Shown: positions 12,216 to 62,431 of the stretch, one piece after another
How the letters are laid out: every line of letters starts with the position of its first letter
Position numbering within the stretch: position 1 is the stretch's first letter
Source of the DNA: Chryseosolibacter histidinae
Lineage (GTDB): Bacteria > Bacteroidota > Bacteroidia > Cytophagales > Cyclobacteriaceae
Assembly (NCBI RefSeq): GCF_018598225.1
Contig: NZ_JAHESF010000005.1
Location: 62,001 to 126,000 of the forward strand
Length of the DNA stretch: 64,000 nucleotides
Direction of reading: 5' to 3'
Program-made: the position numbers and the translations under genes
Notes under the pieces: generated by a model
The model's input: the letters and a program-made list of their open reading frames with translations, nothing else
Told to the model about the DNA's origin: nothing
The model's database searches: none

Positions 12216-12369
12216 GTCCACAGACCACGGTCGACAGACCACGGCTGAACGGTGTGAAGTCACCTGATCGCACTTCGTATCCCGATGCTATCGCAAGCAA
12301 TGTGCAAGGGCTGTGATACGCCGATCCGAAACTGCACGGCTGTGGACTGTCGACTGTGGACCGTGGACT
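12216..12369. repeat. 154-bp element with GTCCACAG/CTGTGGAC inverted ends, copy 1
   Basis: The left end begins GTCCACAGACCACGGTCGAC and the right end reads TGTGGACTGTCGACTGTGG followed by ACCGTGGAC, forming terminal inverted repeats. The interior contains GATCGCACTTCGTATCCCG, found inverted in copy 3 (51049-51068). It lies between the MOSC and phosphorylase genes. No ORF is inside. Confidence 0.8.
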
Positions 12370-47652: not shown

Positions 47653-47805
47653 GTCCACCGTCCACAGTCGACGGCCCACGGCCGGGTAGTTGTCAGGCAG
47701 TGTCAGTGTTGCATCCGGACTTGTGGCCCGACGACTGCTGTCGAGGCGAGAATGTGATCCTTATACGAATCGTCTGTGGTCTGTGGACCGTGGACTGTCG
47801 ACTGT
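47653..47805. repeat. 153-bp element with GTCCAC/GTGGAC inverted ends, copy 2
   Basis: The left end is GTCCACCGTCCACAGTCGAC and the right end CTGTGGACCGTGGACTGTCG. It shares CCACGGCCGGGTAGT with copy 3. It lies just upstream of lnt. Confidence 0.8.
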
Positions 47806-49769: not shown

Positions 49770-50345
49770 ATGAAAAAACTTTCTCCTCTTCTCATGTTGC
49801 TCTTGCTGCTCACGGTGGCCCACCAGGCCAGCGCGTGTTATGGAACCCAGATCTCCGGCCCGTCAACGGTTTACATTAACGCGAATTCACCATTTACAAT
49901 AGGAGGTTTCAGCATCAGTGTCGATCCTACACTTTCACAGGTACGTGGCCCTTACCTGTACACAAGATGGCATACTTCGTATAATGGCACCGTTTATACA
50001 GGTGATGCTGTCTCCATTTATTTTTTCAGGAACCTGGCTCCATTTACCCACAATGAAACCGTTTTTGCAAACTCATATTTTACCGATGGGTCCATATGGG
50101 AGAATAACACGCAGGTGCAGGTCGTTGTGTTCAATCCACCTCTGATGCCCAGTGCTGCTGCGGGTGCCGGACCTGAACAAAGTGCAATAACCATTCTGGA
50201 CGATAGAGGAAAAGTGCTCAGGGCAGCACACGGCCTTCCGGCAGATAGCCCCGTGATCACAGAAGGTTTGACGCCCGGCCTCTACATCATGGAAACCCGC
50301 GATAAGGGGTCGGTCTCGCGAAAGAAGATCTTTATAACACACTAG
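49770..50345 (+). CDS. Secreted 191-residue protein, tandem paralogue A
   Basis: A protein of unknown family. The signal peptide ends AHQASA near residue 22. The body has a beta-rich domain with GGFSISVDPTLSQ and YTGDAVSIYFFRNLAPFTH. The C-terminus (ITILDDRGKVLRA ... EGLTPGLYIMET ... KKIFITH) resembles a type IX secretion sorting domain. It is about half identical to the next gene by eye, including the whole N-terminus. Upstream is a 280-base gap without recognised features. Surface or extracellular location is inferred from the tail. Confidence 0.7.
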   Translation: MKKLSPLLMLLLLLTVAHQASACYGTQISGPSTVYINANSPFTIGGFSISVDPTLSQVRGPYLYTRWHTSYNGTVYTGDAVSIYFFRNLAPFTHNETVFANSYFTDGSIWENNTQVQVVVFNPPLMPSAAAGAGPEQSAITILDDRGKVLRAAHGLPADSPVITEGLTPGLYIMETRDKGSVSRKKIFITH

Positions 50346-50399: not shown

Positions 50400-50975
50400 A
50401 TGAAAAAACTTTCTTACCTCCTTATGTCGCTCTTGCTGATGGCGGTAGCGCATCAGGCCAGCGCTTGTTATGCCGCAAAGATCAACGGTCCATCACAGGT
50501 ACTGATATATTCTTATGCACCTTATGCTATCGGGTCCTTCAGTATCGACATTGACCCCTCATTCATCAACGGCCACGGTGGTTATTTATACACAACCTGG
50601 ACTACTACCATTCAACCGTACACTTATACAGGCGATGCTGTCTCCATTTATTTTTATAAAAACCTGGCCCCCTTTACTCATCTGGAAGGAGTTACTGCAA
50701 CTTTACACTTTGCCGATGGGTTCACCTGGGAAGTCAGCGTTACGGTAGAAGTTGTGGTGCTCACCAATCCGGCTCCGCCTGGTGGTTTCGCTTCCAGTGG
50801 ATCCGGACAAAACATGGTCACCATTATGGATGATAAAGGAAAGGTGCTGAAACAGGTGAAAGATGTATCGGTCACCGATCCTGCTGTTACGGAGGGCCTT
50901 TCACCCGGTCTATACTTCATCGAAAACAAAAAAGGAAAGTCAGTGGATCGAAAGAAGATCGTTATAAAACAATAG
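50400..50975 (+). CDS. Secreted 191-residue protein, tandem paralogue B
   Basis: Same length and layout as its upstream neighbour: signal peptide (MKKLSYLLMSLLLMAVAHQA), conserved YTGDAVSIYFYKNLAPFTH, and the tail VTIMDDKGKVLKQVK then TEGLSPGLYFIENKKG and KKIVIKQ. The 54-base spacer repeats the upstream context before its ATG (AATTAAACAAAACC). It arose by tandem duplication. The centre (residues 105-140) has diverged most. The function is unknown and no named domain is recognised apart from the tail. Confidence 0.7.
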   Translation: MKKLSYLLMSLLLMAVAHQASACYAAKINGPSQVLIYSYAPYAIGSFSIDIDPSFINGHGGYLYTTWTTTIQPYTYTGDAVSIYFYKNLAPFTHLEGVTATLHFADGFTWEVSVTVEVVVLTNPAPPGGFASSGSGQNMVTIMDDKGKVLKQVKDVSVTDPAVTEGLSPGLYFIENKKGKSVDRKKIVIKQ

Positions 50976-51115
50976 TCGACAGTCGACGGTCCACAGTCCA
51001 CGGCCGGGTAGTGTTAAGTTCTGAGCATTTGCCTACTGCCAACTATCTGGATACGAAGTACGATAGTTGATATCACACTGCGCTGCTGTGGACTGTCGTC
51101 CGTGGACCGTGGACT
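50974..51115. repeat. 142-bp element with GTCGAC/GTGGAC inverted ends, copy 3
   Basis: The left end is AGTCGACAGTCGACGGTCCA and the right end CTGTGGACTGTCGTCCGTGG. The interior has GGATACGAAGTACGAT, related inverted to copy 1, and CCACGGCCGGGTAGT, shared with copy 2. It begins at the stop codon of paralogue B and lies in the 304-base gap before the TonB receptor. Confidence 0.8.
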
Positions 51116-51279: not shown

Positions 51280-53274
51280 ATGATAAAACTCGTTGCGAGG
51301 ACGGTCGCCATTGCCTTGATTTTCCCACTGACCGCCTTCTCTCAGGACCTGGACTCATTGCTGAAGATGAGCGCTTTTACAGAAGAAAGCGAGCTCCAGA
51401 AAGTACTCAATCAGAACCTTACCGTTTCGTCATCAAAAGCCCTTACAACAAGAGAGACGCCGGGCATTATCAGCCTTGTTACGGCAGAAGAGATCCGGAA
51501 CATGGGAGCGCGTGACCTCACCGACATCCTGAGGCTGATCCCGGGCTTTGACATCGCGCAGGATCTGCAGTTTGTGATGGGCATCGGTCTTCGCGGCAAC
51601 TGGGCCAACGAAGGCAAGGTGCTGGTGATGCTGGATGGACAGCCGTTCAACGACCTGTTGTACCAGACCGTGGCGGTGGGCAACCGCTTCCCTGTTGATG
51701 CCATCGAACGCATCGAGATCATCCGCGGACCCGGCTCTGCGATCTATGGTGGCTCGGCAGAGTACGGTGTGATCAACATCGTTACCAAAGCTGCCGAAAG
51801 CCTCAATGGTGTTGCTGTTTATGGAACAGGTGGTTTTCATTCCGATGCTGTTGGCCGTACCAATGCCGGTGTAATGCTCGCGCAAAAATCTGCGGACCTC
51901 TCATGGGACCTTTCCTTTTTCAAAGGCAAAGGTATTGTGAGCGATAATAAGGCCTATCAGGATCTCTTCCAGGATACCGTACCCCAGAACCTGATAAAAA
52001 CTACTTCCGCTGACCCCATGAACATCAACGTTGGCCTGCGGTACAAAGGCTTTTCGCTCCGCACCATGTACGATCAGTTCGAAACTTCGGATCCGTTCCT
52101 CTTCATTTCATTCAAGAATTTTTATACCGATCTCCGTTACCACTGGAAGGCCTCCCCGAAGCTTACCATCATCCCCCAGGTGAAATATTACAACCAGGTG
52201 CCCTGGACCTGGGGCGCAACGCTCGACAGAGAAAAATTCTTCAACATCAGGGCCACGCGCCTGCTCTCGCAGCTTGAAGCAGTGTACGATATTTCCCGCA
52301 AGATCAATGTGAATTTCGGAGCCTTGTATTTTACGGACGAAGGCACCGACATGCTCACCGGTGATTCATTCAGGGGCGCGAAGACCTTTCAGCTCAACAA
52401 CTTTGCTTTCTTTGCCCAGGGCCTGCTCAAGCACCGCCTCGTGAATGCCACGCTGGGCTTCCGGTACGAGAAGAATAACTACTACGGTGCCGCTTTTGTG
52501 CCGCGTATGGCGCTGACGAAAAAGATCGAGAACTTCCATTTCAAGGTATTGTATAGCCAGGCCTTCCGCGCGCCGTCGATCCAGAACATCAATCTCGCGA
52601 AGACCGGAAGCGTGAGCCCTGAAAAATCGAATGTGTTCGAGTTTGAGCTCGGTTATCAGTTCACGCCCGAAATGCTGCTGGCCGTGAATGCCTTCAGCCT
52701 CACCACACGCGACATTCTCACCTATGGCTCGGAGGGAACAGGCGGAGAAGATTTTACCGAGTGGTATGAGAACGCCACCAAGACCGGTACACGCGGCGTT
52801 GAGTTCATCTACAGCATCCGCAGAAAATCGTGGTATGCCAACATCTCTTACTCGTTCAGTCATGCCATTAAAGGTGACGAAACCGTGGCAACCTACACGG
52901 TGCCTCAAACCACCACGCAGTATGCCGGTATGCTGGCAAACAAGATCGCCATCAACTCCGCATTTTATCTTACGCCCCGGTTCAGCGTCAATCCAAGCTT
53001 CATCTACGGTGGCAAGCGGTATGCTTACGTAACCGCGGATGATAACGATGAACCTGTGGCCACCAGCCTCGACCCGTACCTGCTGGCAAATGTTTTCTTC
53101 AATGTCAATAACCTCTTCACAGAGGGCTTCACAGCTGGCGTAGGTGCCTTTGACATCCTGAACGAGCAACCTTCCCTGCCACAGGCATACAATGGCGGAT
53201 ATGCACCCATCCCGGGCCGCAGCCTCGAATTCGTAGTGAAGTTGTCCTATCAGTTGAACTTCAAAAAGCAGTAA
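51280..53274 (+). CDS. TonB-dependent receptor
   Basis: A 664-residue outer-membrane receptor without the SusC N-terminal domain. The signal peptide ends LTAFSQ. The plug domain shows TPGIISLVTAEEIRNMGARD, LRLIPGFDI, KVLVMLDGQPFNDLLY and IEIIRGPGSAIYGGSAEYGV. The barrel includes a SQAFRAPSIQNIN segment as in siderophore and vitamin B12 receptors. A YfiR-family gene starts 6 bases after its stop, so they form an operon. The ligand is unknown. Confidence 0.94.
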   Translation: MIKLVARTVAIALIFPLTAFSQDLDSLLKMSAFTEESELQKVLNQNLTVSSSKALTTRETPGIISLVTAEEIRNMGARDLTDILRLIPGFDIAQDLQFVMGIGLRGNWANEGKVLVMLDGQPFNDLLYQTVAVGNRFPVDAIERIEIIRGPGSAIYGGSAEYGVINIVTKAAESLNGVAVYGTGGFHSDAVGRTNAGVMLAQKSADLSWDLSFFKGKGIVSDNKAYQDLFQDTVPQNLIKTTSADPMNINVGLRYKGFSLRTMYDQFETSDPFLFISFKNFYTDLRYHWKASPKLTIIPQVKYYNQVPWTWGATLDREKFFNIRATRLLSQLEAVYDISRKINVNFGALYFTDEGTDMLTGDSFRGAKTFQLNNFAFFAQGLLKHRLVNATLGFRYEKNNYYGAAFVPRMALTKKIENFHFKVLYSQAFRAPSIQNINLAKTGSVSPEKSNVFEFELGYQFTPEMLLAVNAFSLTTRDILTYGSEGTGGEDFTEWYENATKTGTRGVEFIYSIRRKSWYANISYSFSHAIKGDETVATYTVPQTTTQYAGMLANKIAINSAFYLTPRFSVNPSFIYGGKRYAYVTADDNDEPVATSLDPYLLANVFFNVNNLFTEGFTAGVGAFDILNEQPSLPQAYNGGYAPIPGRSLEFVVKLSYQLNFKKQ

Positions 53275-53280
53275 CACCCC

Positions 53281-53787
53281 ATGAAAAAAATATCGGCTTT
53301 AATCCTCCTTACAACCCTCGCCTGCAGCGTCAGGGCGCAGACCACCAATTACCAGGTGCACTCGCTGTTTGTGTTGAATATCGCCAAGTATTCAACGTGG
53401 CCATCCAGTGCCGGTGAGTTTCACATCGTTGTTTTCGGAAAATCGAAAATGTACGAAGAGCTCATGAAGCAGGTCTCCGGCAAACATATCAACGGGCAGA
53501 TCATCAAGGTAACGCAAACAGACGATGCCGGTGAAATAGGCGCAGCCCAGATCGTTTTTCTTGCCGATGGAAAAAGCAGCAACCTCTCGGATATTGTGAA
53601 GGCAACCGATGGAAAATCTACCATGGTGATCGCCGAACGCGAGGGCCTGTTCAGGAAAGGCGCGGGCTTCAGCTTTGTACTGATGGAGAACAACACCTTG
53701 CGTTATGATATCAACAACGTTGAGCTCGAAAAACGGAACATCAAGGTGTCGAAGAACCTCGCCAGCCTGGCCAACTCAATAATCTGA
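53281..53787 (+). CDS. YfiR-family (DUF4154) periplasmic protein 1
   Basis: A 168-residue protein with signal peptide ending VRAQ. The DUF4154 pattern is visible: VHSLFVLNIAKYSTWP, HIVVFGKSKMYEEL, a central QIVFLADG, then TMVIAEREGLFRKGAGFSFV and the ending LEKRNIKVSKNLASLAN. In Pseudomonas, YfiR is a periplasmic repressor of a membrane diguanylate cyclase. Here it is the second gene of a TonB-receptor operon. It overlaps the convergent ppx gene by 12 bases. It is the most divergent of the three copies in this window. Confidence 0.87.
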   Translation: MKKISALILLTTLACSVRAQTTNYQVHSLFVLNIAKYSTWPSSAGEFHIVVFGKSKMYEELMKQVSGKHINGQIIKVTQTDDAGEIGAAQIVFLADGKSSNLSDIVKATDGKSTMVIAEREGLFRKGAGFSFVLMENNTLRYDINNVELEKRNIKVSKNLASLANSII

Positions 53788-54732
53788 TGTGCGGGCTTTC
53801 AGCTGGTCGGTGAGGTAGGCCAGCACACCTTCTTTCAGCGAGTAGGTAGATACCCTGATGCGCGCGAAGTGGTGGCTCTCCAGCAGGAATTTCACGAGGC
53901 AGCACGCTACCACGATCATATCCACGCGCATTTCGATCATGCCGGGGATCAGCATGCGCTGTTCCCGGTTCTTCAGCAACAGGTCCTTATGGATCTCATA
54001 GAAGCCTTCGATCGAGAGGGGCGTCTCAACCTCTTCGGGCGACTTCTCGATATGATGGGTGATGCAGAAAATATCGCTGAGGGTATCGAACGTGCCCGAT
54101 GAACCAACCAGAATAGAAGGATTGAATTTCTGAAGCGCCTGGAACAACGGTTCCAGCGATTTGTGAAAATAGGCTTCTAGCTCCGAAACTTCAGCGGGGT
54201 GAATGGGATCGTGTTTCTGGAACATCTCCAGCAGCCGCTGCGCACCGATCTCGAAGCTTTGTTTCCAGAATACCTGGTCATGGTCGGCGATGATGAACTC
54301 TACGCTGCCCCCGCCGATATCGATGATCAGGTTCTTGTCATGGCCCAGTCCCAGCGCCGCCCTTACGCCCAGGTAAATGTAATGCGCTTCCTGGTCGCCG
54401 GGGATGATGGAGATCCCGATGCCGGTGATCGACCTGATCTTGTCTACGATCTCCTGGCCGTTCCTGGCATTGCGCAGCGCACTGGTGCCGAAGGCATACG
54501 TGTTCTTAACGTCAACCCCATGCCCATCGAGGATATTTTTAAAGCTCTGCATGGCCAGCAGGGCCCGTTGCAGACCACTTTCAGTGATCACCCCGTTATT
54601 GATGCCGCCCATCCCGATCTTCACTGCCAGCCTGTCGCGAAGAATGATATTATAGCCATTCCCGCTCCCTTCGGCGATCAGCAAATGGAAGGTATTTGTA
54701 CCAAGGTCAATAATGGCGATCCTGTTTTGCAT
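53776..54732 (-). CDS. Ppx/GppA family phosphatase
   Basis: A 318-residue actin-fold phosphatase for polyphosphate or pppGpp. Phosphate-1 IDLGTNTFHLLIAE is at residues 9-22, then AFGTSALRNARNG and the phosphate-2 motif IIDIGGGSVEFIIADH, with the Glu-bearing PGDQEAHYIYLGV. Length matches the short Ppx form without the C-terminal HD domain. It is convergent and overlapping with the YfiR gene. Confidence 0.9.
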   Translation of the reverse strand: MQNRIAIIDLGTNTFHLLIAEGSGNGYNIILRDRLAVKIGMGGINNGVITESGLQRALLAMQSFKNILDGHGVDVKNTYAFGTSALRNARNGQEIVDKIRSITGIGISIIPGDQEAHYIYLGVRAALGLGHDKNLIIDIGGGSVEFIIADHDQVFWKQSFEIGAQRLLEMFQKHDPIHPAEVSELEAYFHKSLEPLFQALQKFNPSILVGSSGTFDTLSDIFCITHHIEKSPEEVETPLSIEGFYEIHKDLLLKNREQRMLIPGMIEMRVDMIVVACCLVKFLLESHHFARIRVSTYSLKEGVLAYLTDQLKARTSDY

Positions 54733-54740
54733 TTCGCAGT

Positions 54741-54820
54741 TTTAAAAGTTTGAAGTTGAAAGTTTAAGGTTTAAAGTTACCCTCGACGAACTTTAAACTT
54801 TAAACTTTGAACCTGAAACC
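54741..54820. repeat. AACTTTAAACTT-word inverted repeat, left of the carboxylase gene
   Basis: AAGTTTGAAGTTGAAAGTTT and GGTTTAAAGTT face ACTTTAAACTTTAAACTTTG. The same word recurs at 56495-56580, so the gene between is bracketed. Confidence 0.8.
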
Positions 54821-54900
54821 TCCCCTAAAGCCGTGCGAATTTAATACTATATTTCGACCGCCTTTTACTTATTTTTGGCACCATTCATATACCCTTTATC

Positions 54901-56472
54901 ATGGCCAAACGCAATATCACAGACCCCGTACTTCTGGAAAAATTCAACGAGCTCGAGCGCAAGAACCTGGAGGCGCTGCAGGGAGGAGGAGAAAAACGGA
55001 TCGAACAGCAGCACGCCAAAGGAAAGCTGACGGCCCGCGAACGTATTCACCTGCTGGTGGATGAAGGCTCTTTCGAAGAGCTGGGAAAATTTGTGATGCA
55101 CCGCAGCAAAGACTTCGGCCTTGATAAGGAATACTATCTGGGCGATGGTGTGATCACTGGCTACGGCACCATCAACGGCAGGCTGGTGTATGTCTTTTCG
55201 CAAGACTTCACCGTCTTTGGTGGATCGCTGTCTGAGACCCACGCCGAAAAGATCGTCAAGATCATGGACCTCGCCATGAAGAACGGTGCCCCCATCATCG
55301 GGCTCAACGACTCCGGTGGTGCCCGCATTCAGGAAGGGGTGGTTTCGCTGGGTGGTTATGCCGATATCTTTTATCGCAACACCCTCGCCTCGGGTGTGAT
55401 CCCCCAGATCTCGGCCATTATGGGCCCCTGTGCCGGTGGTGCCGTTTACTCCCCCGCCATCACAGACTTTATCTTTATGGTAGAGAACACTTCCTTTATG
55501 TTTGTGACCGGGCCCAACGTGGTAAAAACCGTAACGCATGAGAACGTCACAGCCGAAGAGCTTGGCGGCGCTATCGCGCACAGCTCCAAAAGTGGTGTCA
55601 CACATTTTGCCTGCGCCAACGAAGCGGAGTGTATCGCCCAGATCAAGACCATTCTCAGCTACATGCCGCAGAATTGTGAAGACGAAGCGCCCCGCATGCC
55701 CTATACACCTGCCGATGAACGGAGGCCCGCGCTCAACTCGGTGATCCCTGCTAATCCCAATCAGCCTTACGATATGCGTGAGGTGATCAACGGTGTGGTG
55801 GATGAAGGCAGCTTTTTTGAAGTGCATAAAAATTTCGCCGAGAACATCGTGGTCGGTTTTGCACGCATCGCAGGCCGCAGCATCGGCGTGGTGGGGAACC
55901 AGCCTGCGTCACTGGCCGGTGTGCTCGATATCCACTCCAGCATCAAGGGCGCCAGGTTTGTGAGGTTCTGCGACTGCTTCAACATTCCGCTGCTGGTGTT
56001 TGAAGATGTGCCTGGTTTTTTGCCGGGCACAGACCAGGAGTGGAATGCCATCATCACCAACGGCGCCAAGCTGCTCTTTGCGTTCTCGGAGGCCACCGTG
56101 CCGCGGGTTACTGTCATCACCCGCAAAGCTTATGGCGGCGCATACGATGTGATGAACTCCAAACACATCGGCGCAGACATGAACTATGCCTGGCCCACGG
56201 CCGAGATCGCGGTGATGGGTGCAAAGGGAGCGGCGGAGATCATCTTTAAAAAGGAGATCTCTGAATCGGCTGACCCGCAGGCCAAGCTGAATGAAAAAGT
56301 GGATGAATACACCCGCAAGTTCGCCAATCCCTACAGGGCTGCGCACCGCGGTTATATCGACGAGGTGATCTACCCCGACCAGACCCGCGAAAAGCTGATC
56401 AGGGCTTTCCAGATGCTGGAGAACAAAGTGGCGAAGCTGCCGAAAAAGAAACACGGCAACATTCCGCTGTAA
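54901..56472 (+). CDS. Acyl-CoA carboxylase beta subunit (propionyl-CoA type)
   Basis: A 523-residue carboxyltransferase subunit that moves CO2 from carboxybiotin to an acyl-CoA. It shows [20 protein letters not shown] at the start, the acyl-CoA site [36 protein letters not shown], and the carboxybiotin side [16 protein letters not shown] with [19 protein letters not shown]. This is closest to propionyl-CoA carboxylase and methylmalonyl-CoA decarboxylase alpha. No biotin carboxylase or biotin carrier gene is adjacent. A TATTTTTG at 54870-54877 could be its promoter -7 element, without a good -33. Confidence 0.93.
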
Positions 56473-56494
56473 TATCATCGGCTGCTTGCCATCT

Positions 56495-56580
56495 CAACTT
56501 TAAAACTGAAATTTGATCCAGCTTAACTTCAAACTTTAAACTTCAAACTTTAAACCTTAAACTTTAAACTTTAAACCTTC
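56495..56580. repeat. AACTTTAAACTT-word repeat, right of the carboxylase gene
   Basis: At least seven copies of ACTTTAAAC-like words lie between the carboxylase stop and the M42 peptidase start. The same word forms the repeat at 54741-54820. Confidence 0.8.
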
Positions 56581-56586
56581 CCTCTG

Positions 56587-57657
56587 ATGGATAAAAAAAG
56601 CAAGGAATTCCTGTTTGAGTATCTCAACAATGCCTCGCCAACCGGCTTCGAATCATCCGGTCAGCAGATCTGGCTCGACTATGTTAAACCTTATGTCAGC
56701 GAACACATCGTTGACGTCTACGGAAGCGTGGTGGGTGTGATCAACCCCAAGGCCAATTACAAAGTGGTGATCGAAGCGCATGCCGACGAAATCTCGTGGT
56801 TTGTGAACTACATCACAGAAGAAGGATACATCTATGTGCGCCGCAATGGTGGGTCAGATCACCAGATCGCACCTTCCAAAAGAGTGAATATCTTCACTGA
56901 AAACGGTATCGTAAAGGGTGTGTTCGGCTGGCCTGCCATCCACGTGCGGGATGCCGCCAAAGAAGAGCCCCCTACCTTGAAGAATATTTTCATCGATGTG
57001 GGCGCTGAGTCTAAAAAAGAAGTGGAAGCCATGGGCATCCATGTAGGGTGTGTGATCACTTTTGAAGATGAGCTCATGGAAATGAACAAGCGGTGGCTGG
57101 TGGGCCGTGCGCTGGATAACAGAATGGGTGGTTATATGATCGCCGAAGTGGCCAGAAGGCTCAGCGAAAACAAGAAAAAACTTCCTTTTTGCCTCTATGT
57201 AGTAAACGCTGTGCAGGAAGAGATCGGGCTTCGCGGAGCCGAAATGATTTCGCGCCGCTTAAAACCGGATTTGGCCATTTGTACAGACGTGACGCACGAT
57301 ACACAATCGCCCATGTACAACAAGAAGGAAAGTGGCAACCTGAAATGTGGTAATGGCCCTGTGGTTTGTTATGGTCCGGCCGTGCAGAACAATGTGTTAA
57401 AAATGGTGATAGACACGGCGCAGAAGCGTAAAATTCCCTTCCAGCGGCAGGCAGTGTCACGTTCTACGGGCACAGACACCGATTCTTTTGCCTATTCTGC
57501 AGAAGGGGTCGCTTCGGCACTCATATCATTGCCACTTAAATACATGCACACCACCGTTGAAATGGTACATAAAGATGACGTCGAAAACGTTATAAATCTG
57601 ATCTACGAGTTCCTTTTACAGCTTAAACCGGGTCACGATTTCAGGTATATTAAATAA
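56587..57657 (+). CDS. M42 family metallopeptidase
   Basis: A 356-residue cytoplasmic aminopeptidase forming large shells in the family. Metal and catalytic sites are visible: EAHADEISWFVNYI (His-Asp), VGRALDNRMGGYMIAEV (Asp), VVNAVQEEIGLRGAEM (catalytic Glu-Glu), ICTDVTHDT (Asp) and YMHTTVEMVHKDDV (His). It starts 6 bases after the AACTTTAAACTT array. The family also includes proteins once called endoglucanases, but peptidase activity is the better call. Confidence 0.93.
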   Translation: MDKKSKEFLFEYLNNASPTGFESSGQQIWLDYVKPYVSEHIVDVYGSVVGVINPKANYKVVIEAHADEISWFVNYITEEGYIYVRRNGGSDHQIAPSKRVNIFTENGIVKGVFGWPAIHVRDAAKEEPPTLKNIFIDVGAESKKEVEAMGIHVGCVITFEDELMEMNKRWLVGRALDNRMGGYMIAEVARRLSENKKKLPFCLYVVNAVQEEIGLRGAEMISRRLKPDLAICTDVTHDTQSPMYNKKESGNLKCGNGPVVCYGPAVQNNVLKMVIDTAQKRKIPFQRQAVSRSTGTDTDSFAYSAEGVASALISLPLKYMHTTVEMVHKDDVENVINLIYEFLLQLKPGHDFRYIK

Positions 57658-57703
57658 TAATGGATTTAAACCTTACATCGCTAAGGTTGTTGCCCTTATA
57701 GGT

Positions 57704-57735
57704 TTTCAGGCTAGCGGCCGGGAGACCTATTTTTG
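57704..57735 (+). promoter_or_regulatory. Promoter of the second YfiR gene
   Basis: TTTC at 57704-57707, 20 bases, then TATTTTTG at 57728-57735, a full -7 match. It gives a leader of about 35 bases before the ATG at 57777. Confidence 0.6.
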
Positions 57736-57776
57736 TATCAACAAAGACAAACAACACCCAAGAATTTTCTTTAGTT

Positions 57777-58289
57777 ATGAAAAAATTTAAAGCTCTTTTG
57801 ATCGCCGCGGTACTTGTGTCAGGAAGCGCGATCGCCCAGGACAGACCCATCCATGAAGTGTACTCGATGATGGTTTTCAATTTTACGAAATACGTTCAGT
57901 GGCCTGATCACACTGCCGCCGGAGAGTTCGTGATCGGCGTTGTTGGCAATGCAGATGTATATGCTACTTTGAATACGTGGTATGGCGGCAAACCCCGCGG
58001 TTCTAAAACGTATGTGATCAAGAAATTCAATTCTTCTGATGAAATAACAGATTGTCACGTGGTGTTCATCGACAAGTCGAAAAGCGGCGAGTTCGATGCC
58101 ATCAACAACAAAGTGAAAGGTAAAGGAACGCTGGTGATCACCGACAAGAATGGTCTTGGTGAAAAAGGAAGCGGCATCAATTTCAAGACAATTGACAATA
58201 AACTGAAGTTCGAGCTGAACCAGAAAGCACTTGAGGCTTCTAACCTCAAGGTTTCAGGCGCACTCTCTTCAATGGCAATATTGATTTAA
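57777..58289 (+). CDS. YfiR-family (DUF4154) periplasmic protein 2
   Basis: A 170-residue protein with signal peptide ending GSAIAQ. The core has RPIHEVYSMMVFNFTKYVQW, EFVIGVVGNADVYATLN, TDCHVVFIDKSKSGEFDAIN, TLVITDKNGLGEKGSGINFK and the ending SNLKVSGALSSMAILI. It is more similar to copy 3 than to copy 1. It has its own promoter and a terminator follows, so it is probably monocistronic. Partners are unknown. Confidence 0.87.
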   Translation: MKKFKALLIAAVLVSGSAIAQDRPIHEVYSMMVFNFTKYVQWPDHTAAGEFVIGVVGNADVYATLNTWYGGKPRGSKTYVIKKFNSSDEITDCHVVFIDKSKSGEFDAINNKVKGKGTLVITDKNGLGEKGSGINFKTIDNKLKFELNQKALEASNLKVSGALSSMAILI

Positions 58290-58304
58290 TGGGTTGTTTG
58301 GAAG

Positions 58305-58347
58305 CCCCGGCCCCGAGAAATCGGGGTGGGGTTTTTTCCTTTTTTTA
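58305..58347 (+). terminator. Intrinsic terminator after YfiR gene 2
   Basis: CCCCGGCCCCGA pairs with TCGGGGTGGGG (one bulge) around GAAA, followed by TTTTTTCC and a further T-run. It lies 15 bases after the stop. Confidence 0.9.
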
Positions 58348-58387
58348 TCGTAGAGATTGGCATACGTAGTAACTGTATATAATATCT

Positions 58388-58897
58388 ATGAAGAAGACTG
58401 TCATTTTGTTGGCGATGACCGTACTGGCCATCGGGGTAAGGGCGCAGGAAAGACCTACTCATGAGATACATGCAGCGATGCTGTATAATTTTATTAAGTA
58501 CGTCCAGTGGCCCAACGAGGCCGAAGCAGGCGACTTCGTGGTAGGGGTGATCGGTGACGAAAAGGTCTTCAACACCCTCAAACAATGGTATGACGGCAAG
58601 CCCAAAGGCAGCAAAAAATACGTGATCAGGATGCTTGGCGCCCCTACAGAAGCAGGCGATTGCCAGGTGGTTTACGTAGGAAAATCAAAGAACAAGGATT
58701 TCGAAAGTATAAAAACAAGTACAACGGGGAAATCAGTATTGACCATTACTGATGGAAATGGATTAGGGCAGAAAGGAAGTTGTATCAATTTTAAAGTAGT
58801 TGACGGTAAATTAAAATTTGAATTAAACCAGGCCACGGTTAACTCATCTAACCTCAAAGTTTCCGGGCAGCTCAGCAGCATGGCGATCATGATCTGA
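58388..58897 (+). CDS. YfiR-family (DUF4154) periplasmic protein 3
   Basis: A 169-residue tandem paralogue of the preceding gene. The signal peptide ends IGVRAQ. It has RPTHEIHAAMLYNFIKYVQW, DFVVGVIGDEKVFNTLKQWY, LTITDGNGLGQKGSCINFK and SNLKVSGQLSSMAIMI. The PAS histidine kinase starts 81 bases downstream on the same strand with no terminator seen between, so the two may be cotranscribed. This is the best contextual hint of an output for the group. Confidence 0.87.
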   Translation: MKKTVILLAMTVLAIGVRAQERPTHEIHAAMLYNFIKYVQWPNEAEAGDFVVGVIGDEKVFNTLKQWYDGKPKGSKKYVIRMLGAPTEAGDCQVVYVGKSKNKDFESIKTSTTGKSVLTITDGNGLGQKGSCINFKVVDGKLKFELNQATVNSSNLKVSGQLSSMAIMI

Positions 58898-58978
58898 TCG
58901 CCGCCTCGCGAAGTGGATTTTTTCTGCTAATCACCTCGGTCTCAGGGGTAATTATATTTAAACAGTTGGATTGTGTGT

Positions 58979-60046
58979 ATGAAGGAGAATGACGGGATGT
59001 TTAAAGAACTGGTTGAAAACTCAGACGATATTTTGATTGTAACAGACGAGGATTTCAAGATCCGCTACATCTCATCGTCTGTAACACGGGCATTTGGCAT
59101 CGAGCCCATGAAGCTCCTCGGCCAGAATATTTTCAATTTTATCAACGCTGAAAAAACTGGTAACTGGAAACGGTGCCTGAAAGATCCGGCGCAAGTGTCG
59201 TTCCATGACGAGATCTCGCTGAACGCCGGCAACGACAAAAGAAATTATTTCGATGTTGAGGTCTCCAATTTCCTCAACAAAGCGAGCATTCATGGACTGG
59301 TGCTCAAGCTTCATGATATCTCCAGCAAAAAGCTCAAGGAAGAAGCGCTCATCCGCTCCAATCAGCAGCTCGATCAGGTGATCTACAAAACTACACATGA
59401 TCTCAAAGCGCCGCTCATGTCTGCGATGGGTCTCGTGAACATCGCCGAGAAAGCTGCACCTTCTGAAAAAGATAAATATCTCCGGCTGATCAGGAAGAGC
59501 CTCGTCAGGCTCGATTCGTTCATTGAAGAAATGAATGATTTTTTCAGGAACGAAAAGCTTGCGCTTCAACGGGAGAAGATTAATATTGCGACGTTATTGA
59601 ACGACGAACTCGGAGACCTCAGATCCCTCTATGAGCCATCTAAAATTGATGTCCAGTTCGAAATTCACGGAAACAGTGAATTTTATTCTGATGGTATACG
59701 TTTAAGAACTGTAGTAGCGAACTTATTGTCTAACGCTATTAAGTACTACGATCCGGATAAAATTGAACCATTCGTAAAGATTTCTGTTTACATAAACGAA
59801 GAAATTTGCGAAATTCGCTTTGAAGATAATGGAATAGGAATCGAGCCACAGTACCAGGAGAAGATCTTCGACCTCTTCTTCAGAGCTACAGACCACGCTC
59901 AGGGAACAGGATTAGGATTGTTCATTGTCAAAGACACGATAGAAAAATTGAAAGGAGTGATTGTTGTCAATTCAACAGTGGGTCAAGGTTCAACCTTCAC
60001 GATCCAGCTCCCCAATCAGATACACCAGCCGATCGAGGTTGGATAA
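58979..60046 (+). CDS. Soluble PAS-domain sensor histidine kinase
   Basis: A 355-residue protein without membrane segments. The PAS domain (about residues 6-115) begins MFKELVENSDDILIVTDEDF. The H-box is in TTHDLKAPLMSAMG (His140). The HATPase domain has the N-box VVANLLSNAIKYYDPDKI, G1 FEDNGIGIEP and G2 GTGLGLFIVKDTIEKL. No response regulator is adjacent. ATG 58979 is preferred over the GTG two codons earlier. It should autophosphorylate in the cytoplasm; the signal and the partner are unknown. Confidence 0.92.
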   Translation: MKENDGMFKELVENSDDILIVTDEDFKIRYISSSVTRAFGIEPMKLLGQNIFNFINAEKTGNWKRCLKDPAQVSFHDEISLNAGNDKRNYFDVEVSNFLNKASIHGLVLKLHDISSKKLKEEALIRSNQQLDQVIYKTTHDLKAPLMSAMGLVNIAEKAAPSEKDKYLRLIRKSLVRLDSFIEEMNDFFRNEKLALQREKINIATLLNDELGDLRSLYEPSKIDVQFEIHGNSEFYSDGIRLRTVVANLLSNAIKYYDPDKIEPFVKISVYINEEICEIRFEDNGIGIEPQYQEKIFDLFFRATDHAQGTGLGLFIVKDTIEKLKGVIVVNSTVGQGSTFTIQLPNQIHQPIEVG

Positions 60047-60139: not shown

Positions 60140-60919
60140 ATGCCAGACCGGTCGTTTTTCGATCAGCTCGGAAATAAACTCACACTTCCCCGTCCGCCGC
60201 AACGGATCGTCTCACTCGTTCCTTCACAAACCGAATTGCTGCACCACCTCGGCCTCCACCAGCAGGTAGTTGGCATCACCAAATTCTGCGTCCATCCACA
60301 CGAGTGGCTTAAAACCAAACAGATCATCGGTGGCACAAAACAATTTCACTTCGATGCCATTGAAGCGCTTCAGCCCGATCTCATCATCGGCAACAAGGAA
60401 GAGAATTATAAAGACGGCATTGAAAAGTTGCAGCAGCAATATCCTGTGTGGATGAGCGACATCACTTCCCTGAACGATGCCATTACCATGATCCGCTCCA
60501 TCGGCGAGCTCACTTCTTCAGAAACGCGGGCGGCAGCGATCATCAGCAGCATTACCAGCGCATTTGCAACACTGAAGAAACACGACTCAAAAAGGGTGCT
60601 TTACCTGATCTGGCGAAAACCATGGATGGCCGCCGGGTCACAAACGTTTATCAATACCATGCTTGAAATGCTTGGCCTCGTAAACTGCCTGGCCGGCAAG
60701 CCGCGTTATCCCGAGATCACCAGCGATGAGATCGCCACGTTAAGACCTGACGTGATCCTGCTTTCCTCCGAACCTTATCCCTTCCAGGAAAAACATTACA
60801 ACGAGATCCAACAGCTCGCACCCACCGCCCGCATCATGCTGGTTGATGGCGAAATGTTCTCCTGGTACGGAAGCCGGTTGATGTATGCTCCTGAGTATTT
60901 GAATAAGCTGGAATTCTGA
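60140..60919 (+). CDS. Helical-backbone metal receptor without signal peptide
   Basis: A 259-residue protein with the BtuF/FecB-type two-lobe pattern: RIVSLVPSQTELLHHLGLHQ, VVGITKFCVHPHEWLKTKQI, EALQPDLIIGNKEEN, and a C-lobe with EITSDEIATLRPDVILLSSE. Such proteins normally deliver B12 or iron chelates to BtuC/FecCD permeases from the periplasm. This one starts MPDRSFFDQLGNKL with no hydrophobic signal or lipobox, suggesting a cytoplasmic protein. The FecCD/FecE pair at 14461-16472 lacks a binding protein but is 44 kb away. Confidence 0.85.
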   Translation: MPDRSFFDQLGNKLTLPRPPQRIVSLVPSQTELLHHLGLHQQVVGITKFCVHPHEWLKTKQIIGGTKQFHFDAIEALQPDLIIGNKEENYKDGIEKLQQQYPVWMSDITSLNDAITMIRSIGELTSSETRAAAIISSITSAFATLKKHDSKRVLYLIWRKPWMAAGSQTFINTMLEMLGLVNCLAGKPRYPEITSDEIATLRPDVILLSSEPYPFQEKHYNEIQQLAPTARIMLVDGEMFSWYGSRLMYAPEYLNKLEF

Positions 60920-61207: not shown

Positions 61208-62431
61208 TTAACGCACCTCTATTTGAAACCCGAAGCTCCTCACATCGTCCCAAAACCTCGGATACGACTTCCTCACCACACTCGGGTTCTCGATCTCCAC
61301 ATTCATCAGTGTTGCCAGTGGTGCGAAGGCCATGGCCATGCGGTGATCTTTGTAGGTTTGGAAACTTGCCGACGAGGGAAGCTTTGTTGAAGGCAACAAG
61401 GTCCAGTGTGTGGAGTCGTCTTCACGCAGGTCGGCGCCGATCTTTCGCAGCTCGTTTTGAAGCGCGGCGATGCGATCAGTTTCTTTGATGCGAAGACTTT
61501 CGAGTCCTGTGAAATTTCCTTTGATACCTTTTGCGGCACAGATCACGGCAACGGTTTGCGCCAGGTCAGGGCAGTGTGTGAAATCCCAGCTGATCTCTTT
61601 TGCACCGGATGCTTTCGTGAGCCTGAGCTCTCCGTTCACGAGCTCGGCCTTCACACCCAGGGCCGTCATGTCTGCGATGGCACGGTCACCCTGCAACGAC
61701 TGAAGTGACAATCGTGGAAGGACCACGTCGGCTTCCTTGGCAAGCGCTACGAATGAGAACCAGTAGCTCGCGCCAGACCAGTCTGACTCAACAGTGAATT
61801 CTGCCGCGCGATAAGTTTGTGGCTTGATGGAGATCGTGTTGCCTGCAAATTCTGCCGTGGTGCCGAAATGCCTCATCAGTGACGCGGTCATTTCAATGTA
61901 GGGCCTGCTCCCGATCTTTCCTTCAAGTGTAAGGGTGAGTCCCTGTGGTAGCACTGGCGCCACCATCATCAACGCTGAAATGAACTGACTGCTCACATCT
62001 CCGCGGATGCTGATCGCGTTTGTCTTTTGAGAAGAGAAGCCATTGATCCTGATCGGCGGATAACCATCTTTCTCCAGGTACGCGATGTCAACTCCTAACG
62101 AACGTAAGGCGTTGACGAGGATGCCGATCGGGCGTTCCTTCATACGCGCGGTGCCGGTAAGGATCTTTTTCTGATTGGTGATAGAAAAGTAAGCAGTGAG
62201 AAAACGCATGGTAGTGCCCGCATCCTCTACATCGATCTCTGTTTCAGGAGAGTTTACGAGCCGCAACATTAGCTGCGTATCGTTGGCATCGGAAAGATTG
62301 TGCAATGCTGACTCGCTTTTTGCCAGCGCCTTCATGATGAGCACGCGGTTGGCGATACTTTTTGACGCAGGCAGGGCGGAGGCGGTGCCGCGCAGAGATG
62401 ATTTTTGTGTGATGGATAACGTTGAGTTCAA
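61208..62431 (-). CDS. aroA: 3-phosphoshikimate 1-carboxyvinyltransferase
   Basis: A 407-residue EPSP synthase of the shikimate pathway. It has TASALPASKSIANRVLIMKA, the PEP/substrate segment DAGTTMRFLTAYFS, ISIRGDVSSQFISALMMVAP, and KETDRIAALQNELRKIGAD, with KDHRMAMAFAPLA near the end. It is about 20 residues shorter than the E. coli enzyme. aroB lies upstream on the same strand with one small opposite gene between. Confidence 0.96.
   Translation of the reverse strand: MNSTLSITQKSSLRGTASALPASKSIANRVLIMKALAKSESALHNLSDANDTQLMLRLVNSPETEIDVEDAGTTMRFLTAYFSITNQKKILTGTARMKERPIGILVNALRSLGVDIAYLEKDGYPPIRINGFSSQKTNAISIRGDVSSQFISALMMVAPVLPQGLTLTLEGKIGSRPYIEMTASLMRHFGTTAEFAGNTISIKPQTYRAAEFTVESDWSGASYWFSFVALAKEADVVLPRLSLQSLQGDRAIADMTALGVKAELVNGELRLTKASGAKEISWDFTHCPDLAQTVAVICAAKGIKGNFTGLESLRIKETDRIAALQNELRKIGADLREDDSTHWTLLPSTKLPSSASFQTYKDHRMAMAFAPLATLMNVEIENPSVVRKSYPRFWDDVRSFGFQIEVR

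Follow-up and report, generated by a model that had tools for sequence, protein, structure and literature searches.

The 64,000-nucleotide stretch of Chryseosolibacter histidinae DNA analysed here (positions 62,001 to 126,000 of contig NZ_JAHESF010000005.1, hereafter the window) encodes three YfiR-like proteins, YfiR1, YfiR2 and YfiR3, the first adjoining a TonB-dependent receptor and the other two lying in tandem ahead of a soluble PAS-type histidine kinase. The usual role ascribed to YfiR is that of restraining a diguanylate cyclase. Comparison of this region across related genomes gives, in our estimate, an even chance that YfiR2 and YfiR3 gate a two-transmembrane (two-TM) HAMP-GAF-PAS sensor encoded elsewhere in the genome, with the soluble kinase as a possible partner in trans and without the participation of cyclic di-GMP (c-di-GMP).

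A membrane sensor encoded apart from the tandem yfiR genes

The assignment of the three proteins to DUF4154 (PF13689) was confirmed by Pfam, with 98.8, 119.3 and 125.4 bits for YfiR1, YfiR2 and YfiR3 respectively against a curated cut-off of 24.9, and together they span 5.6 kb, in agreement with the first-pass annotation of the window, which had placed three YfiR-like proteins within 6 kb. The NCBIfam equivalogs sequest_YfiR and YfiR_like_TOL0243 were not reached, the best window YfiR scoring 107.9 against 125 and 45.9 against 85 respectively. A structure model of YfiR3 (mean pLDDT 90.2) returned Pseudomonas aeruginosa YfiR chains as its top solved matches (E 3.5e-9, TM 0.66/0.74), and the next-nearest solved folds were a Rhodothermus substrate-binding protein and 3lkv/3lft.

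According to PMC3375315, F162, E163 and I169 of P. aeruginosa YfiR belong to the patch that docks on YfiN. A set of 74 sequences, hand-picked for spread from the 103 YfiR sequences of the window and the named loci, was aligned by profile to P. aeruginosa YfiR, and the corresponding columns carried F in 59, E in 66 and I or V in 53 of the 74 rows. A loose docking-like motif occurred in 22 of the 23 YfiRs encoded, like YfiR2 and YfiR3, downstream of an M42 aminopeptidase gene (M42-linked YfiRs), compared with two of eight fusion proteins.

The first-pass annotation had seen no GGDEF protein in the region. The same holds for the whole window genome, where GGDEF gave no match, although 8 of 14 control genomes were positive in the same search. 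Across a family sample (60 genomes from 60 genera), DUF4154 was present in 29, and GGDEF was matched in three, two of them DUF4154-positive (G066 and G076, both partial); 27 of the 29 DUF4154-positive genomes thus gave no GGDEF match.

The candidate partner in the window genome is a protein of 657 aa with two TM segments (G000:C89:207475-209445, locus L010), encoded 8 bp from a YfiR gene of its own. Pfam recognised GAF and PAS domains; HAMP was not found by Pfam at E 0.001 in this protein, but was detected by a custom hidden Markov model (HMM) and by Pfam in orthologues such as that of locus L273. The sensor gave no match to a catalytic domain or to a methyl-accepting chemotaxis protein (MCP) signalling domain, and CHASE8 was matched neither in it nor in its L273 orthologue. 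The protein ends in a stretch that appears coiled-coil-like by eye, often with PAS, and an EELxATQEE motif occurs in 26 of 33 GAF sensors. The orthologue at L186, which comes from a named genome and is 54% identical, was all-helical in its periplasmic part in a low-confidence model (mean pLDDT 61, two sequences), and the periplasmic domain of the sensor is probably all-helical.

Occurrence of this sensor follows that of DUF4154. Its N-terminal 215 residues were matched in 26 of the 60 family genomes, comprising 26 of the 29 DUF4154-positive and none of the 31 DUF4154-negative ones (Fisher p 5e-14, relatedness ignored); the matches in G070, G074, G095 and G119 were weak (24-32% identity). The sensor adjoins a YfiR in 21 of the 26, the others being G070, G072, G074, G082 and G085.

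Genes around YfiR were mapped in the window genome, in two further genomes of its genus, in the family sample and in a sample of the order, where 32 of 59 genomes have DUF4154. With G008:C1:273112, G024:C33:268976, G033:C402 and G063:C224 left out, this gave 164 stand-alone YfiR genes and eight fusions. The counts include loci of near relatives, the same-genus L260-L264 among them, and the 865 background genes, three or more genes away, were taken on either strand. Two-TM sensors made up 43 of 196 immediate same-strand neighbours compared with 7 of 865 background genes, and TonB receptors 32 of 196 compared with 4 of 865; per YfiR, a two-TM sensor lay within two same-strand genes in 49 of 164 cases and a receptor in 34. 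Pfam analysis of chosen neighbours returned HAMP-GAF(-PAS) sensors, a HAMP-SpoIIE phosphatase, two-TM kinases and, in the window genome, a CHASE8-HAMP-kinase (L009). In the eight fusions (L098-L102, L257-L259) DUF4154 is combined with an output domain of kinase or SpoIIE type; among the five scanned with Pfam, L098 and L101 contain HisKA/HATPase and L099, L100 and L102 SpoIIE, with a TM segment between the domains, and L257-L259 were assigned by custom domain HMMs.

As a separate observation, the YfiR-sensor pair often adjoins a gene read as peptide chain release factor 1, a reading based on the GGQ motif in L212 and on the match of L292 to L212, and at other loci on the length alone of a 355-361 aa neighbour.

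Genomes with a single YfiR bear on the proposed link between the sensor and the tandem proteins. Through the named loci 23 genomes were searched for DUF4154, and five had a single YfiR (G123, G125, G131, G133 and G139; G125 was taken as the same assembly as G019, having the same coordinates). In all five the lone YfiR is M42-linked, at a locus without kinase (L146, L149, L167, L171 and L185). Four of the five (G019, G123, G133 and G139) keep the sensor; its identity is 66% over 535 residues in G139 and 63-64% over about 640 in the other three. G126, which has two YfiRs, also has a sensor without an adjacent YfiR. At these orphan-sensor loci (L273-L277, of which L273, L274, L275 and L277 belong to the four single-YfiR genomes) some or all flanking genes match those of the window genome and the adjacent YfiR is gone; in 14 other relatives (L279-L292), as in the window genome, a YfiR stands directly beside the sensor. 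The suggestion of the first-pass annotation that a missing transmembrane partner lies elsewhere thus gains support from the 26 sensor-bearing family genomes, all DUF4154-positive, and from the orphan sensors of the four single-YfiR genomes, with G131, discussed below, as a counter-case.

The M42-yfiR locus and its soluble kinase

A scan of contigs with YfiR3 yielded 61 loci, and 62 were mapped with the window included. An M42 gene is followed by YfiR at 50 of them: 24 carry two YfiRs and the kinase, one three YfiRs and the kinase, 12 two YfiRs without kinase, four three YfiRs without kinase and nine a single YfiR without kinase. YfiR2, YfiR3 and the kinase are accordingly kept together at 25 of the 50; L169 was tallied as kinase-less, although its sequence stops 208 bases past YfiR3, too soon to judge. 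Co-conservation extends past close strains, the named genera with this arrangement including Ohtaekwangia, Chryseolinea, Pseudochryseolinea, Parachryseolinea, Dawidia and Chryseotalea. The order M42-YfiR2-YfiR3-kinase is intact at L132-L135 (the locus of Ohtaekwangia koreensis and three like it), where the flanking genes recognised elsewhere are missing on both sides; the kinase reading frame in L132 is short (237 aa). At L191 and L192 only the last 35-50 YfiR residues are matched between the M42 and BtuF-like genes, with no YfiR among the open reading frames, and these may be decayed copies.

The kinase was found at 25 of 41 loci with at least two YfiRs and at none of nine with a single one (Fisher p 0.0016). 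These raw counts suggest a joint loss of the kinase and the second YfiR, which was dropped as a claim since only three independent pairs lie on starred branches of the M42 tree (built without L180 and L181; this and the YfiR tree are quick trees with support by SH-aLRT only).

Simple hydropathy scanning revealed no hydrophobic segment in the kinase at any of the 25 kinase-bearing loci, window included. A transmembrane sensor domain, which is usual in histidine kinases but not obligatory, is thus absent from the window kinase. Alignment of 24 kinases, again with that of the window, showed 37 conserved positions out of 239 in the kinase part compared with one out of 118 in the PAS part. Residues conserved in at least 96% were H142, N250, N254, D285, G287, G289, G311, G313 and G315, which correspond to the phospho-acceptor histidine, the N box and the G boxes. 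Relocation of the kinase was considered for the 22 genomes without it at the locus and rejected, no orthologue being found among the at most 82 candidates scored per genome; the best matches there reached 3e-62 and 36% identity, whereas the three control genomes gave 2e-103 to 8e-141 at 59-64% identity.

Features of the region are collected in Table 1.

Table 1. Features of the receptor-yfiR1 and yfiR2-yfiR3-kinase region (window positions).
Feature	Position	Strand	Evidence
TonB-dependent receptor, 664 aa, unit 1	51280..53274	+	Pfam Plug E 2.6e-19
YfiR1, DUF4154, 168 aa, unit 1	53281..53787	+	Pfam DUF4154 E 3.9e-28
M42 aminopeptidase, common upstream neighbour of YfiR	56587..57657	+	Pfam
Terminator-like hairpin (57699-57729) 3' of the M42 gene; it overlaps the TAnnTTTG box (57728-57735) 5' of yfiR2	57699..57735	+	
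YfiR2, DUF4154, 170 aa, Sec-type N-terminus (by eye from the translation)	57777..58289	+	Pfam E 1.8e-34
Intrinsic-terminator-like hairpin (58306-58331) and T-tract (58332-58337) between yfiR2 and yfiR3	58306..58337	+	
YfiR3, DUF4154, 169 aa, Sec-type N-terminus	58388..58897	+	Pfam E 2.4e-36
Soluble PAS-HisKA-HATPase histidine kinase, 357 aa	58973..60046	+	Pfam PAS, HisKA, HATPase_c

The gene layout reported earlier was recovered: YfiR1 follows the receptor after 6 bp, and YfiR2 and YfiR3 are in tandem before the kinase, with gaps of 98 bp between the two, which holds the terminator-like hairpin, and 75 bp between YfiR3 and the kinase. Genes for PPX, a carboxylase (named by eye) and the M42 peptidase lie between YfiR1 and YfiR2. 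Transcription marks were measured against shuffles meant to keep dinucleotides, and gaps of fewer than 20 bases were dropped except before the kinase, leaving 46 of 50 M42-YfiR and 45 of 46 YfiR-YfiR gaps. Terminator-like hairpins occurred in 25 of 46 M42-YfiR gaps (0.7 in shuffles) and in 24 of 45 YfiR-YfiR gaps (1.7 in shuffles), and were rare 5' of the kinase (2 of 25 compared with 0.2, none at the other 23). A TAnnTTTG box, which is of the Bacteroidota -7 type, was present in 37 of 46 M42-YfiR gaps compared with 4.2 in shuffles, and stood at background in YfiR-YfiR gaps (7 of 45 compared with 5.8) and 5' of the kinase (1 of 25 compared with 1.4). To judge from these motifs, yfiR2, yfiR3 and the kinase gene look like one transcription unit, and the marks fit the order yfiR2, partial terminator, yfiR3, kinase. 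The M42 peptidase was considered as an operon member, being a constant neighbour, and rejected, as the hairpin and the promoter-like box separate it from yfiR2 at many loci; its gene is probably transcribed apart from yfiR2, and its constant position may reflect gene order alone.

The region consists of two units, receptor-YfiR1 being separate from YfiR2-YfiR3-kinase. The first-pass annotation had raised the receptor, the three YfiRs and the kinase as a possible sensory system; the reading as a single system was abandoned since the parts are apart at most loci and in the YfiR tree. Of the 62 mapped loci, only seven have the receptor-YfiR1 pair upstream (L000, the window, and L136, L137, L139, L141, L153 and L158), L150 has YfiR1 without a recognised receptor, and 19 of the 25 kinase-bearing loci, some shortened by contig ends or flanks, lack a recognised receptor. 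In the YfiR tree (170 domains) the 23 M42-linked YfiRs share a starred set of 30 rows with six unlinked proteins and one sensor-linked protein, and YfiR1 belongs to another of six rows, five of them receptor-linked. The window genome has eight DUF4154 genes in all. All 25 NCBIfam matches of the receptor were below their cut-offs.

Some further features were observed nearby. A BtuF-like metal-receptor protein without evident signal peptide by eye (60140-60919) is often found downstream of the YfiR unit. Two tandem secreted proteins of 191 aa, alike by eye (49770-50345 and 50400-50975), carry type IX secretion system (T9SS)-type C-terminal sorting signals, one above and the other below the NCBIfam cut-off. 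GTGGAC/GTCGAC-type heptamer repeats occur in short runs at 12342-12369 and 47783-47803, with a similar short run near 51098.

Proposed mechanism and alternative explanations

In the proposed mechanism, a periplasmic condition would change the binding of YfiR2 and YfiR3 to the unlinked two-TM sensor, which would relay the change through the membrane via HAMP to its GAF/PAS part. Because it has no recognised catalytic domain, the sensor would need a partner protein to act, and the soluble PAS kinase of the yfiR operon would be the most economical candidate where present; c-di-GMP would not be part of the pathway. We infer a physical gating of the sensor by YfiR2 and YfiR3, which by analogy with P. 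aeruginosa YfiR would be inhibitory, and the proposed link from the sensor to the soluble kinase is the weakest step. A fuller version would be a three-tier relay free of c-di-GMP, in which the paired YfiRs gate the enzyme-less sensor and the latter controls the soluble kinase in trans, in the manner of a chemoreceptor, with a leaky terminator determining how much of the first YfiR is made relative to the second one and the kinase; we consider this version rather unlikely.

Several observations weigh against the proposed gating. The N-terminal part of the sensor was unmatched in three DUF4154-positive genomes (G066, G089 and G109), although G089, which has a two-TM GAF protein next to its YfiR (L233), is probably a case of a divergent sensor. 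Neither a sensor nor a receptor lies near 76 of the 164 stand-alone YfiRs, an upper bound since the custom-built HMMs for sensors, receptors and kinase domains miss divergent members. G131 has a lone M42-linked YfiR, and neither the sensor nor CHASE8 was matched in this assembly of unstated completeness. The only YfiRs of G127 are its two M42-linked ones, and it has just a more distant paralogue of the sensor (L278, 40% over 519 residues). The five orphan-sensor loci are close on the M42 tree, in one starred set of nine rows with four kinase-bearing loci, and may stem from one evolutionary event. The window genome has an intact sensor-YfiR pair, and YfiR2 and YfiR3 are therefore not strictly needed there. 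On the side of the kinase, this gene is missing at 25 of the 50 M42-YfiR loci, the unjudgeable L169 among them, and its association with at least two YfiRs was not significant on independent pairs. As a side observation, the paralogue at L278 (6081-8181) is preceded by a secreted-looking protein of 166 aa where others carry YfiR, which has no Pfam match and by eye resembles a small phosphate-binding-type protein.

The absence of the kinase from these loci bears on the possibility that the soluble kinase is mechanistically unlinked to the YfiRs, its PAS domain sensing a cytoplasmic signal and the protein being merely co-transcribed or regulating the operon. We give this somewhat less than an even chance, and it is compatible with gating of the sensor by the YfiRs. 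The YfiRs remain where the kinase is gone, and its presence and absence need ten state changes on the M42 tree, whereas the lack of an orthologue among the at most 82 candidates scored in each of the 22 genomes without it at the locus, the maintenance of the kinase behind YfiR in Ohtaekwangia-type genomes with different flanks and its absence from all nine single-YfiR loci argue for a connection. That YfiR2 and YfiR3 act on another unlinked membrane partner, such as the CHASE8-HAMP-kinase of L009 or an unrecognised protein, appears unlikely. L009 is the one CHASE8 kinase of the window genome, with a TonB receptor and a different YfiR nearby, and the lone YfiR of G131 has neither known partner; however, 15 of 19 genomes searched gave no CHASE8 match, the four single-YfiR genomes with an orphan sensor among them.

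A role of YfiR2 and YfiR3 as ligand-binding or scavenging proteins with a substrate-binding-protein fold and without signalling function would agree with the folds found next to YfiR for the YfiR3 model and with the many YfiRs away from sensors and receptors, but the fusions of DUF4154 to kinase and phosphatase outputs, the linkage of YfiR to the sensor and the retained docking residues make it distinctly unlikely. The first-pass annotation had also suggested another task, for example one tied to ligand uptake; on such a reading, all three YfiRs and the kinase would serve ligand sensing by the adjoining TonB receptor. Receptor-YfiR pairs are indeed common among immediate neighbours and the pair precedes the M42 locus by a few genes at seven loci; nevertheless, YfiR2 and YfiR3 occur without a recognised receptor at most kinase-bearing loci, some of them truncated, and are separated from the receptor-linked YfiR1 in the tree, and we regard this explanation as very improbable.

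Relation to known YfiR systems

The closest described counterpart is YfiBNR of P. aeruginosa. The study with accession PMC3375315 is that of Malone et al. (2012). As described in PMC3375315 and PMC4655355, YfiBNR resembles the present system in its periplasmic YfiR-fold regulator, in a YfiN-docking patch that is largely kept and in a HAMP-containing membrane partner. The differences from these descriptions are that the window genome has no GGDEF match, that the likely partner has GAF/PAS domains, no catalytic domain and a periplasmic domain unmatched by CHASE8, and that tandem YfiRs occur with a soluble kinase. Moreover, the stability of P. aeruginosa YfiR needs a Cys145-Cys152 disulfide according to PMC4655355, a pair that the window proteins lack. 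In a profile alignment the YfiR3 positions corresponding to these residues hold no cysteine; mature YfiR3 has two cysteines, YfiR2 one and YfiR1 none, and YfiR1 and YfiR2 are therefore unable to form such a pair. No YfiB-type Pal/OmpA-like lipoprotein was found among the ten window genes scanned, to which the search was confined.

The class to which these proteins belong is already known. PMC3375315 describes YfiR-YfiN as modular, the outputs being kinase, HPT or GGDEF-EAL domains, reports two YfiR homologues and one hybrid-kinase YfiN in Thauera sp. MZ1T, and notes that some YfiN-YfiR homologues stand alone. These divergent modules, as described there, likewise tie YfiR to non-GGDEF outputs; in them, however, the kinase replaces GGDEF within the membrane protein YfiN, whereas here the kinase is separate and soluble and the sensor has no kinase domain. 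To judge from their names, the NCBIfam families TOL_0243 and TOL_0244 stand for a YfiR-like protein and a TonB receptor whose locus numbers are consecutive, a pairing like that of the receptor-YfiR1 unit, although the window proteins score under the curated cut-offs.

Chemoreceptors, which are membrane sensors devoid of a catalytic domain, act in trans on the soluble kinase CheA. The proposed division between a sensor lacking a catalytic domain and a soluble kinase, with a putative contact between the two, would be similar; in contrast, the sensor of the window genome gave no match to an MCP signalling domain and the kinase is of PAS-HisKA type, not CheA. A literature search covering few subscription journals returned no account of a family-wide link between YfiR and a sensor without GGDEF, of an enzyme-less sensor, of the SpoIIE fusions or of the YfiR2-YfiR3-soluble kinase operon.

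In this family YfiR is common (29 of 60 genomes) where GGDEF is rare (3 of 60), and its occurrence follows that of one membrane sensor. Should this link be borne out, it would provide a defined partner for proteins still labelled DUF4154, YfiR would be able to serve partners encoded at unlinked sites, and signalling by a sensor devoid of a catalytic domain would become testable, a minimal case being offered by species that have a single YfiR and a single sensor and lack the kinase at the locus.

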